Shown here: positions 44,351 to 51,271 of the stretch, in pieces
How the letters are laid out: each line of letters opens with the position of its first letter
Numbering within the stretch: position 1 is the stretch's first letter
The notes under the pieces: generated by a model
Told to the model about the DNA's origin: nothing
What the model saw: only the letters and a program-made list of their open reading frames with translations
Database searches by the model: none
Origin: Vibrio harveyi NBRC 15634 = ATCC 14126 = KCTC 12724
Lineage (GTDB): Bacteria > Pseudomonadota > Gammaproteobacteria > Enterobacterales > Vibrionaceae
NCBI RefSeq assembly: GCF_001591145.1
Contig: NZ_BCUF01000005.1
Span: 1 to 64,000, forward strand
Length of the DNA: 64,000 bases
Direction of reading: 5' to 3'
Made by a program: the position numbers and the translations under genes

Positions 44351-45955
44351 ATCATTAGTACAAACAATATCACCATGCAATTTGGTGCCGAGCCACTGTT
44401 CGAAAATATCTCTGCTAAATTTGGCAACGGCAACCGTTATGGTCTGATTGGCGCAAACGGCTGTGGTAAGTCGACATTTATGAAAATCCTGAGCGGAGCA
44501 TTAGCGCCAAGCTCGGGCAACGTTTCTATTACTCCGGGGCTGAAACTGGGCGTATTGAGCCAAGATCAGTTTGCGTTCGAGCAATACAGTGTGATTGATG
44601 CTGTGATCATGGGCGACCGCAAGCTCTGGGAAGTGAAGCAGGAACGTGACCGCATCTATTCATTACCTGAAATGAGTGAAGAAGACGGCATGAAAGTCGC
44701 TGAGCTGGAAAGCGAATTCGCAGAAATGGACGGCTACACAGCAGAAAGCCGTGCTGGCGATATTTTGCTTCAAGCGGGTATTGAAGAAGAGCTGCATTTT
44801 GGTTTGATGCAACAAGTTGCTCCGGGCTGGAAACTGCGTGTGCTTTTGGCGCAAGCTCTGTTTGCTAACCCAGATATTTTGCTGCTCGACGAACCAACCA
44901 ACAACTTGGATATTCACACCATCAACTGGCTGGCGGAAGAGCTGAACCAACGTAAGTGTACGATGATCATCATCTCGCACGACCGTCACTTCTTAAACTC
45001 TGTGTGTACTCACATGGCAGATATCGATTACGGCGAACTGCGTATTTACCCTGGCAACTATGAATACTTCCTTGAAGCATCTGGTCTTCGTCGTGAACAG
45101 TTATTGGCTTCCAACGCGAAGAAAACCGCTGAAATCAATGAACTTCAAGAATTCGTAAACCGTTTTGGTGCGAATGCATCGAAAGCAAAACAAGCCAGCT
45201 CTCGCGCTAAGAAGATGGAAAAAATCCAACTCGACGAAGTGAAAGCAAGTAGCCGTGTTAGCCCATCGATTGATTTCGGTGAGGGCAAAAAACTGCATCG
45301 TTTAGCATTGGAACTGCAAGACCTTGGGCACTCGTTTGGTGATGAGTTGTTGTTTGAAAAAGGCAACTTGTTACTTGAAGCGGGCACTCGCCTTGCGATC
45401 ATCGGTGAAAACGGTGTGGGTAAAACGACCTTGCTACGTTGCCTAGTGAACGAACTAGAGCAAACTCAGGGCGTAGTAAAATGGTCTGAAAACGCTTCGA
45501 TTGGTTACTGCCCACAGGACAGTAGCGCGGACTTCGATAATGATCTGACCATCTTTGAGTGGATCTCACAATGGCGTACCGTGAAGCACAATGACCTAAT
45601 GGTGCGTGGCATTCTAGGTCGCTTGCTGTTCACCGCTGACGATGCCAACAAAAAAGCGAAAAACTGCTCGGGTGGTGAGAAGAACCGCCTGCTGTTTGGT
45701 AAGCTAATGATGCAAGACATCAACGTTTTGGTTATGGATGAGCCAACCAACCACATGGATATGGAAGCAATTGAAGCGTTAAACAGCGCGTTAAAAGACT
45801 ACACTGGCACTTTGATCTTCGTTAGTCATGACCGTGAGTTTGTATCGTCATTGGCGACTTCAATCATTGATGTAAAAGACAAACAGTTGGTGAGTTTCCA
45901 AGGTACATTTGAAGAGTACATGGCACACCAACAAAAGGTGCTTAGCGCTGCGTAA
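44351..45955 (+). CDS. ybiT: ABC-F ATPase YbiT
   Basis: A translation factor-like ABC-F protein (about 534 residues) with two ATPase domains: Walker [10 protein letters not shown] and GENGVGKTT, Walker B/DEPTNNLD and DEPTNHMD, degenerate first signature VAPGWKLR and second CSGGEKNR, as in E. coli YbiT. E. coli YbiT starts eight residues before the conserved TMQFG. The matching position here is ATC at 44351 (ATC-ATT-AGT), with GAGGA exactly 7 bases upstream, whereas the first ATG (44375) has no ribosome site. A noncanonical AUC start is therefore proposed. It probably binds ribosomes at the E-site. Confidence 0.85.
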
Positions 45956-49272: not shown

Positions 49273-49303
49273 AAAGCCGGAGATTACCTCCGGCTTTGTT
49301 TTT
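49273..49303. terminator. Bidirectional terminator between GST and ABC-F genes
   Basis: AAAGCCGGAG and CTCCGGCTTT with a 5-base loop, then GTTTTTA. Confidence 0.9.
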
Positions 49304-51038
49304 ATAGCTGCGCCGTAATTTCCTCTATCTCTTGCTGCCACTGCTTTTGCATCGCTGGTTTTTGATGTTTGGGTTTTCGCTCCAAATCGGCTTCCAGCAA
49401 GCTTTCCAGTTCCAACAGTCTTTCCAGCACTTGCTCTTCGGATTGCTCATCAGGCGCGGTGTTTGTTTCCATCGACATTACTTCATTGCAATGATGCGAG
49501 ATGGCTGATTTCGGTGCTGTATCAGTTACGCGTTGATACACATCTTCCGCGATTAAATACTCCGTCAGTAAGCCATTTTCAATAAACCAGAATCGATTAC
49601 AGCTTTGCTCTATCAGGCTTCGGTCGTGACTCACCAATAAGGCGGCACCTTCGAAGTTTTGCAGAGTTTCAATCAGCTCTTCTTTGCCTTCCATATCCAA
49701 ATGGTTGGTCGGTTCATCTAAAAACAACATGTGGTAACGAGCGAGGGTTAAGCCGACAAACAGCAGCCTTGCTCGTTCTCCACCACTTAGACTGATGACT
49801 TTCTGCTCGTGTCTTGCGTACTCAAATCCTGCACCAATTAGCGAACGTTTTGCCTGTTCACTGCTGATGCTGGCAAACGACTGCAACGCATCCGTGATGG
49901 ATTGATGATCGTCGAGTTGCTTTAGGGATTGATCGTAGTAACCCAAGCGACAGCGATCGTGGAAAGTCACACTCTCATGTTGGTTGCCTAGGTCATTTTG
50001 GAATGCTTCATACTGACGATAAAGCAGATTCAACAAAGTCGATTTACCGCAACCATTACTGCCTAGAACGGCAATTCGGTCGCCACTTTTCACGCGCATT
50101 TCTGCCATATCAAACAAGTGATAATCACTGTCTGGTGGCATTACCGAGAAAGGCAAAATCTCTAACAGTCGATTTGCTGGCATTGACTCACCTTGAAGTT
50201 GTAGCGCCCACGGTGTGCCTTCTGTCAGTTCGGTTTGTTCTTCCTCTAAACGTTCTTTGCGCGCAAACATCGTCTTGGCTTTTCGAGCAAGATCTTCGTT
50301 GTCGTAGACTTTGCCCCAAGTGGCTAAACGCTTGGCGCTTTTTTCGATTCGGTCGATCTCTTTCTGCTCGTTGGCATGGCGAAGTTGATCGGTTTCATCT
50401 TTCTCTTTCAATGCTTGTCTTGCTTGAGAACAAGGCAGAGAGAAATGACGCAGAGATCGATCTCGCATGACCCAAGTGGTGTTGGTGACGCGATCGAGTA
50501 AGGTTTGATCGTGAGATACCAATACGAATGAGCCTTTCCAGTTTGATAGGAATTGCTCTAACCAAAGGAGCGATGGCAAGTCCAAGTGGTTGCTTGGTTC
50601 ATCCAGAAGCAGTAAGTCAGGTTGATGGATAATCGCACGAGCAAGCAGGAGTCGCATTTGCTGACCACCACTGCAATTCTCAACCGGCATGTGTCGTTCT
50701 GTGTTTGAAAATCCGAGTTCATCCAATAAGAGTTCGGCGCGCCAAATCTCATCATCGGATAAGGATTCCGCTAACGCATCTAAGACAGAATGTGTGCTTA
50801 AAGATTCAGGTAAATGTTGCTCAACATAACGCATCAAACATGAACTGGCTTTGGCAACCGTGCCTTGGCTTGGTTCAAATTGACCGCTAAGCAGTTTGAG
50901 TAGGGAGCTTTTACCACAGCCGTTATGACCGATAAGACCAATTTTGTCGCCACGATGAATCGTAAACGTTAGATCTTTGAAGATTGGTGTTGCTGTGTGA
51001 GAAAGGGTTAATGATTGTGCAGTTAAAAAAGTACTCAT
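49302..51038 (-). CDS. ABC-F ATPase with regulated leader
   Basis: A 578-residue protein without membrane helices. Two ABC domains: Walker A GHNGCGKSS and GSNGCGKST, signatures CSGGQQMR and LSGGERAR, Walker B LLLLDEPSNHLD and MLFLDEPTNHLD. Between them is a charged helical linker (about 205-260), the part that reaches the ribosome P-site or PTC in translational ABC-Fs, and a C-terminal coiled region (about 515-578). It belongs to no E. coli subgroup I can name. Its mRNA has a 26-codon leader ORF and alternative hairpins, as do antibiotic-responsive ABC-F genes. Confidence 0.85.
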   Translation of the reverse strand: MSTFLTAQSLTLSHTATPIFKDLTFTIHRGDKIGLIGHNGCGKSSLLKLLSGQFEPSQGTVAKASSCLMRYVEQHLPESLSTHSVLDALAESLSDDEIWRAELLLDELGFSNTERHMPVENCSGGQQMRLLLARAIIHQPDLLLLDEPSNHLDLPSLLWLEQFLSNWKGSFVLVSHDQTLLDRVTNTTWVMRDRSLRHFSLPCSQARQALKEKDETDQLRHANEQKEIDRIEKSAKRLATWGKVYDNEDLARKAKTMFARKERLEEEQTELTEGTPWALQLQGESMPANRLLEILPFSVMPPDSDYHLFDMAEMRVKSGDRIAVLGSNGCGKSTLLNLLYRQYEAFQNDLGNQHESVTFHDRCRLGYYDQSLKQLDDHQSITDALQSFASISSEQAKRSLIGAGFEYARHEQKVISLSGGERARLLFVGLTLARYHMLFLDEPTNHLDMEGKEELIETLQNFEGAALLVSHDRSLIEQSCNRFWFIENGLLTEYLIAEDVYQRVTDTAPKSAISHHCNEVMSMETNTAPDEQSEEQVLERLLELESLLEADLERKPKHQKPAMQKQWQQEIEEITAQL

Positions 51039-51162
51039 AGTGTTCTCAAGAATTTTGGGCGTAAGACGCCTTTGTCATAGCTGACAATAATTCTTCGAGC
51101 TTGAGGGAAAGTACTCGGGTGACGTGTTTTCGTCGAAAGGTAATTATTCGCTCAAGTCGAGA
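51039..51162 (-). promoter_or_regulatory. Structured leader RNA before the ABC-F gene
   Basis: In the minus-strand transcript CTTGAG (51151-51156), CTCAAG (51100-51105) and a second CTTGAG (51045-51050, overlapping the ribosome site) allow two exclusive pairings. AAGAATT (51089-51095) also matches AATTCTT (51048-51054). Two local hairpins lie between: TTGTCA/TGACAA (51072-51087) and GGCG/CGCC (51058-51070). The layout is that of an attenuator that can hide or free the ABC-F ribosome site. Confidence 0.6.
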
Positions 51163-51243
51163 TTATCGCAGCGCGAAATCTGAAACTCTTGAGCGGTCCT
51201 TCATGCCATAAAAACGTGGGTTGATTGAACACCACAAAGACAT
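51163..51243 (-). CDS. Leader peptide of the ABC-F gene (26 codons)
   Basis: A short open frame found by eye: an AAGGAGGAATTT ribosome site, the best in the area, then ATG and 26 codons (start MSLWCSINPRFYGMKDR) to TAA at 51163. The ABC-F start codon follows 124 bases later after mutually exclusive hairpins. Ribosome stalling on such a peptide typically switches antibiotic-resistance ABC-F and erm genes. No homologue was checked. Confidence 0.7.
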   Translation of the reverse strand: MSLWCSINPRFYGMKDRSRVSDFALR

Positions 51244-51271
51244 AAATTCCTCCTTAATTTCGTTGTAAGTG

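Follow-up and report, generated by a model that had tools for sequence, protein, structure and literature searches.

A conserved leader-peptide RNA element in front of an ABC-F gene of Vibrio harveyi, probably acting as a translation attenuator

Organisation of the leader region

The first 64,000 nucleotides of contig NZ_BCUF01000005.1 of Vibrio harveyi NBRC 15634 (assembly GCF_001591145.1), hereafter the window, carry on the minus strand a gene for an ABC-F ATPase of 578 amino acids (49302-51038), probably of subfamily PAF1, which is preceded by a leader open reading frame (ORF) of 26 codons (MSLWCSINPRFYGMKDRSRVSDFALR, 51163-51243). The leader starts with ATG at 51243, ends with TAA at 51165-51163, has a ribosome site AAGGAGG (51249-51255) in front of it and is separated by 124 nucleotides from the ABC-F ATG at 51038. 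A previous sequence-only reading of this DNA had described the consensus ribosome site, the frame and its distance from the ABC-F gene, all of which were confirmed, and had proposed that leader translation and alternative RNA pairing control the gene. Since the leader and the helices described below recur in relatives, they are more than a chance arrangement; the locus appears to be a real, conserved leader-peptide RNA switch, for which translation attenuation is the best reading.

Four alternating hexamers were found in the RNA sense: CTCAAG within the leader (51193-51188), CTTGAG (51156-51151), CTCAAG (51105-51100) and CTTGAG (51050-51045), the last three of which had been noticed before. 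The pairing tests described below delimit a larger set of minus-strand elements. Element 1 (CGCTCAAGAGTT, codons 17-20, 51184-51195) pairs either with element 2 (CTTGAGCGAA, 51147-51156) or, through codons 18-20, with element 4 (AATTCTTGAG, 51045-51054), the latter being the ribosome-site region of the ABC-F gene. The alternative partner of element 2, through its GAGCGAA, is element 3a (TTCCCTC, 51103-51109), with one mismatch inside. Element 3b (AAGAATT, 51089-51095; 70.4% of alignment cells paired, and the swap test) has AATTCTT of element 4 (51054-51048) as its partner, and we take this to be the 7-bp match to the ribosome-site region that the sequence-only reading mentioned. The leader end (GCTGCGATAAT, 51162-51172), comprising the end of codon 24, codons 25-26, the stop and the next base, pairs with element 3c (ATTATTGTCAGC, 51080-51091), as judged from pairing counts, to form helix X. 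The two local stems reported earlier are present as hairpin P2 (TTGTCA/TGACAA, 51087-51072; 92.8% of cells paired) and hairpin P3 (GGCGT/ACGCC, 51070-51058), which was recognised from the window fold and the sequences of relatives, its register not being held by the MAFFT columns (52% of cells paired). The window RNA from 51300 to 51018 folds better than its shuffles (z -3.1; 1 of 200 shuffles as good).

Distribution of the leader and its coupling to the ABC-F gene

Of 227 genomes of the genus, 69 had a relative of the ABC-F protein (E up to 1e-100); with an alignment and E up to 1e-150, relatives were detected in 47 of 394 genomes of the order and 12 of 398 of the phylum. Among the best 80 loci in named genomes were representatives of Marinomonas, Parendozoicomonas, Enterobacter, Klebsiella, Buttiauxella, Erwinia, Pantoea, Rahnella, Yersinia, Xenorhabdus, Aeromonas, Shewanella, Alcaligenes, Burkholderia, Janthinobacterium and Pseudovibrio, and the gene occurred in 38 records of PLSDB, several of them chromosome-sized. 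The leader of each locus was picked solely by the strength and position of its ribosome site, an ending in Leu-Arg-stop not being required. Nevertheless, a leader of 24-31 codons with this ending was found in 132 of 141 ABC-F loci sharing at least 40% identity, across gamma- and betaproteobacteria; the frame is thus conserved in relatives, and, as a correction to the sequence-only reading, the element is not peculiar to Vibrio. The other nine loci comprise one Leu-Gln ending (L171), four shifted or truncated frames and four loci without a leader. The 141 loci do not represent 141 independent cases, because some come from near relatives.

None of 47 ABC-F genes of less than 40% identity (L121, L123-L166, L208, L209) was preceded by a leader with the Leu-Arg-stop ending or by a TGCGATAA element, and a few of them had a chance ORF in the leader size range. 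In a tree of 64 proteins, the leader was confined to one clade of 44 rows (support 98/96), of which 39 had the leader, two had it frameshifted and three, from Pseudovibrio, lacked it. These Pseudovibrio genes (L114, L116 and L122) are alphaproteobacterial ABC-F relatives with 42-45% identity and no recognisable leader. In the same tree, the Xenorhabdus and Marinomonas copies were nested among those of the window's genus, suggesting that leader and gene were transferred together. A further unit was observed on the 50-kb Morganella morganii plasmid p48659_1 (L244), where the leader ends in Val-Arg instead of Leu-Arg.

A covariance model of the element, run with stricter filters on genus and class genomes, gave matches in 70 of 227 genus genomes, namely the 69 carrying the ABC-F gene and one more (G144), in which the leader element stands before a frameshifted ABC-F gene (L211/L240); this frameshift could reflect decay or an assembly error. 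One of these 69 genomes (G146) has two leader-ABC-F units (L065 and L072), with one leader frame broken and the other intact, and the RNA model matches both. Among 369 class genomes, the sole match was the window's own genome, which indicates a patchy distribution, and neither of the two scans showed a match before a gene other than ABC-F. The apparent leader-RNA switch precedes this ABC-F gene in many bacteria of the sea, the gut and the soil.

Selection on the leader peptide

The ratio of nonsynonymous to synonymous differences (pN/pS) was calculated from 39 pairs, with each sequence used once. For codons 2-16, the leader frame gave 0.40 (95% interval 0.32-0.50) and the two other frames 0.97 and 1.12; for codons 9-13, the corresponding values were 0.25 (95% interval 0.14-0.37), 2.12 and 1.44. 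Codons 17-20 and 21-23 gave 1.42 and 1.04 with wide intervals. Of 108 distinct leaders, 100 have Ala, Pro or Ser at codon 9, 86 have Arg or His at codon 10, 96 have Phe or Tyr at codon 12 and 86 have Gly or Ser at codon 13, these residues being encoded mostly by several synonymous codons. The pN/pS values and codon counts together indicate that a peptide motif, [A/P/S][R/H]x[F/Y][G/S] (PRFYG in the window, 51205-51219), is kept, and that RNA pairing governs the codons after 16. As judged from these substitution patterns, the leader is translated and under peptide-level selection. The motif is unlike any arrest motif known to us.

Conserved RNA pairing and compensatory changes

In helix X, the leader end (GCUGCGAUAAY) pairs with RUUAUYG(U)CAGC 70 nucleotides downstream, usually with one bulged base; 821 of 834 cells were paired in 76 sequences and 98.9% of cells in a 41-sequence alignment. 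The penultimate Leu codon is TTG in 13 loci, in 11 of which its partner reads CAAC, while most of the remaining loci combine CTG with CAGC. The base that follows the stop varies together with its partner as well, the pair in 76 sequences being C-G in 40, U-A in 28 and U-G in 6. One leader with a UGA stop (L192) has UCAUCG opposite, counted as the only G-C at that pair; UAG stops, present in 16 of 133 leaders (e.g. Aeromonas L110 and L112, and L203), keep helix X by G-U pairs or compensation; and in the Morganella plasmid leader the pairing is, by reading of the sequence, kept despite the change from Leu-Arg to Val-Arg. Compensation that links codons and a stop codon to a remote RNA element is unusually easy to read here.

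At the ABC-F ribosome site, the paired segments of elements 1 and 4 are CUCAAGAGUU and AAUUCUUGAG in the window, GCUCUUGC and GCAAGAGC in both Burkholderia L108 and Aeromonas L110, and CUCAGG and CCUGAG in Rahnella L117. In the 76 sequences, 611 of 751 cells of 1:4 were paired, in an alignment where the betaproteobacterial element 4 is misaligned, together with 560 of 607 for 1:2, 399 of 429 for 2:3a and 357 of 507 for 3b:4. When partners were swapped among 41 sequences, none of 5000 permutations was as good as the natural combination for 1:4, 1:2, X, 2:3a or 3bc:4; the controls 1:3a (1889 of 5000), 3a:4 (2257) and leader end:3a (3286) showed no difference, and leader end:4 gave 336. Helices 1:4, X and 2:3a jointly had 93.1% of their cells paired in the 41 sequences, with double changes in 11 of 23 pairs; 46 cells carried double changes as compared with 12.0 in shuffles, none of 500 shuffles having as many, and sliding the partners lowered the pairing from 93% to 35-52%. 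These comparisons indicate that conserved pairing, 1:4 and 3bc:4, hides the ABC-F ribosome site. An unrestricted tree-aware test of all column pairs, run on the first set of 59 sequences, gave no pair with E below 0.05 (best 0.8).

Folding with a model ribosome on the leader

To model a ribosome, its footprint was held unpaired from 14 nucleotides before to 15 nucleotides after the first P-site base, a size taken from general knowledge, in a model that leaves out pseudoknots and kinetics. The mean openness of the ABC-F ribosome site in 76 sequences was 0.25 without a ribosome, 0.26 and 0.35 with the P site at codons 12 and 13, 0.42-0.44 at codons 14-19, 0.40-0.41 at codons 20-22, 0.35 at codon 23, and 0.29, 0.27 and 0.24 at codons 24, 25 and 26. 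The most open position lay within codons 13-22 for 62 of the 76 sequences. As the ribosome moved from codon 12 to codon 14, 1:4 pairing fell from 6.8 to 0.2 pairs, and with a ribosome at codon 24, 3:4 pairing rose to 12.3 pairs. Dinucleotide-shuffled sequences stayed at 0.42-0.43 throughout, and their gain at codon 16 differed from that of the natural ones with p 3e-18, relatedness being ignored; natural sequences are therefore unusually closed save with a mid-leader ribosome. On average, the model predicts that opening starts at codon 13, which is the end of the conserved peptide motif, and that a ribosome halted at about codons 13-22 would expose the ABC-F site, while none, or one at the stop codon, would keep it shut.

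The nearly invariant end of the leader was at first read as a site of termination arrest that opens the gene, as in MsrDL or TnaC. Leu-Arg-stop is present in 132 of 141 loci, and MsrDL is described as halting at its UAA stop (PMC10314930), but the ABC-F site is predicted to stay shut when a ribosome occupies codons 24-26. Furthermore, the complementarity to 3c accounts for this end, since the changes in it, synonymous or not, keep the pairing (TTG with CAAC, the Gln of L171, the UGA of L192 and the Val-Arg of L244). For these reasons the termination-arrest reading was dropped, and it now seems unlikely.

Proposed mechanism and comparison with known systems

The observations are best accommodated by a ribosome-operated translation attenuator of the ermC or toiL kind, which probably controls the ABC-F gene. 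In the resting fold, element 1 would pair with element 4, enclosing two nested helices, X and 2:3a; a second shut fold would combine the 1:2 hairpin with 3:4. A ribosome reaching the leader end would cover it together with element 2, and the site would stay shut, with region 3 taking element 4 or 1:4 re-forming. A ribosome halted at about codons 13-22 would cover element 1 and, up to about codon 19, leave the leader end free for 3c and element 2 free for 3a, so that element 4 would be deprived of its element-1 partner and of part of its region-3 pairing, and ABC-F would be made. We infer that the nascent motif of codons 9-13, together with a drug or other ribosome stress, is the most likely cause of the halt, which the ABC-F protein would relieve; the induction by a ribosome-targeting compound or translation stress suggested earlier would be of this kind. 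Control of the gene by leader translation and alternative pairing, as first proposed, is well backed by conservation, frame-specific selection, compensation and predicted position-dependent folding, although the main locks, 1:4 and leader end:3c, were missing from that proposal.

Several findings weigh against the attenuator interpretation. The predicted 3:4 pairing drops little, from 7.8 pairs without a ribosome to 6.2-7.0 at codons 13-19; the opened level is no higher than that of shuffled sequence; in 28-codon leaders the folding effect is small, openness starting at 0.34 and reaching 0.42 at most; and in the window itself, the openness of the start codon falls from 0.47 to 0.07 while the ribosome site opens. 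As for the helices, 2 of 13 TTG leaders retain CAGC (G-U), 3 of 133 loci lacked a recognisable 3c pattern, pairing of 1 with 4 is weak in L115, L178, L191 and L103, and the own partner of 1:2 was above the row median in only 22 of 41 sequences. The swap control 2:4 was also low (13 of 5000), both the swap permutations and the shuffle comparison ignore relatedness, and the negative outcome of the tree-aware covariation test belongs here too. Finally, the leader frame is shifted or truncated in L065, L071, L099 and L120, and no leader was found at L114, L116, L122 and L207.

The toiL-topAI system of Escherichia coli is, together with ermC, the closest in mechanism, and the likeness is one of mechanism: in this gammaproteobacterium, too, the leader ORF pairs with the downstream ribosome site, which halted ribosomes unmask (PMC12121999). 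Unlike the element described here, toiL controls a toxin-antitoxin operon and, according to the same source, opens on halts at various positions including the start codon, whereas the folds of the V. harveyi leader and its relatives predict opening for a mid-leader halt only and include extra helices (leader end:3c, 2:3a and 3b:4). Rho-dependent termination could in addition follow from repressed translation, as has been proposed for topAI.

The ermC leader, which precedes a methyltransferase gene, folds through alternating segments 1:2, 3:4 and 2:3. Halting of the ribosome on ErmCL is described as altering the RNA pairing so that the ribosome site of the gene is exposed (PMC10219788). In contrast, the lock of the element described here includes the stop-codon region, and its leader codons also form direct pairs with the ribosome site of the gene.

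MsrDL-msrD and vmlR share with the V. harveyi locus a leader in front of an ABC-F gene, both of these being antibiotic resistance (ARE) ABC-F genes. The msrD leader of six residues, halted at its stop codon, is reported to work with an intrinsic terminator (PMC10314930), the vmlR leader has been described with RNA polymerase pausing and both transcription and translation attenuation, and the ARE ABC-F leaders treated in PMC12421871 act at the transcription level. A choice between terminator and antiterminator, as in msrD or vmlR, would be an alternative; however, no terminator-like site was found on the minus (coding) strand between 50700 and 51400. In 76 relatives, checked for T runs only, the longest run from the leader stop to ABC-F +20 was at most 4 in 49 and 5-7 in 27, the latter lying in sampled examples mostly within the P3 loop or the coding start. 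Judged by these scans, transcription attenuation is improbable.

Another explanation could be that the conserved RNA structure acts via a protein, small RNA or metabolite, with the leader merely keeping ribosomes on the RNA, and the leader end and 3c do show more conservation of primary sequence than simple pairing requires. Yet the frame-specific selection on codons 2-16 and the motif of codons 9-13 point to the translation of a particular peptide, and no Rfam 15 family reached its gathering score anywhere in the window, a permissive search giving just two sub-threshold matches, both on the opposite strand. This explanation is thus very improbable.

Returning to the translation attenuator, a more far-reaching version of it may be put forward tentatively, somewhat short of an even chance: that the leader is a new and widespread sensor, in which the motif [A/P/S][R/H]x[F/Y][G/S] responds to a natural compound that inhibits the ribosome at its exit tunnel or catalytic centre, and operates a position-gated, double-locked switch that serves PAF1 in gamma- and betaproteobacteria and moves with it as a unit. 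If so, the leader would reveal the drug against which PAF1 acts. Halt causes of the chloramphenicol, macrolide and apidaecin types were considered, and none gave a clear fit. A leader apparently sensing halted ribosomes would in itself be independent evidence for a resistance role of PAF1, to which the gene probably belongs; this role becomes testable, and the leader could be used to find the halting compound. The system would be a translation attenuator common to gamma- and betaproteobacteria. The leader is undescribed in the titles and opening abstracts of the literature searched, subscription papers and preprints lying outside the scope.

Identity of the ABC-F protein

The window protein reached the cut-off of none of the 25 best NCBIfam families, and so fell below the curated cut-off of any resistance ABC-F family among them; its score with the general ribosome-protection model NF000355 was 346 against a cut-off of 380. 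At least one of 14 relatives matched this model with E 1.4e-134, by comparison above its cut-off, but the model is non-discriminating, because paralogs of the YheS and YbiT types in that genome exceed the cut-off as well. A sequence search of solved structures and a fold search with an AlphaFold2 model (mean predicted confidence, pLDDT, 83.7) found VmlR2 and PoxtA at about the same distance as EttA, YbiT and YheS. These searches place the protein among ABC-Fs and are not decisive beyond that.

PAF1 was predicted to be a resistance ABC-F from its phylogeny and patchy distribution (Murina et al. 2019), a study whose main text is without the terms uORF and leader and which was the only one retrieved by a literature search for PAF1 and ABCF. 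The range of the gene fits that of PAF1, including Vibrio, Enterobacter, Klebsiella and others and not Escherichia, with patchiness within genera (Serratia and Citrobacter being outside this check); a megablast search of 5,426 E. coli genomes, with a Klebsiella copy as the query and reaching down to about 85% identity, gave no match. Judged by range and patchiness, the ABC-F protein is probably a member of PAF1.

Other features of the window

A small hairpin, AAGTG-GCAA-CACTT (51280-51267, minus strand), lies immediately before the leader ribosome site, and some relatives have look-alikes of it, such as GAAAATG-TTCG-CATTTTC at locus L003. An inverted repeat, GCCACTTTT/AAAAGTGGC (51320-51312 and 51282-51274), lies close to a weak promoter-like site (51328-51301, minus strand), one such site having been found against 1.3 expected. 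The window also contains a second ABC-F gene on the plus strand (44375-45955), whose product matches NCBIfam PRK15064 with 941 bits (cut-off 762), a family which we take to be the YbiT-like ABC-Fs.
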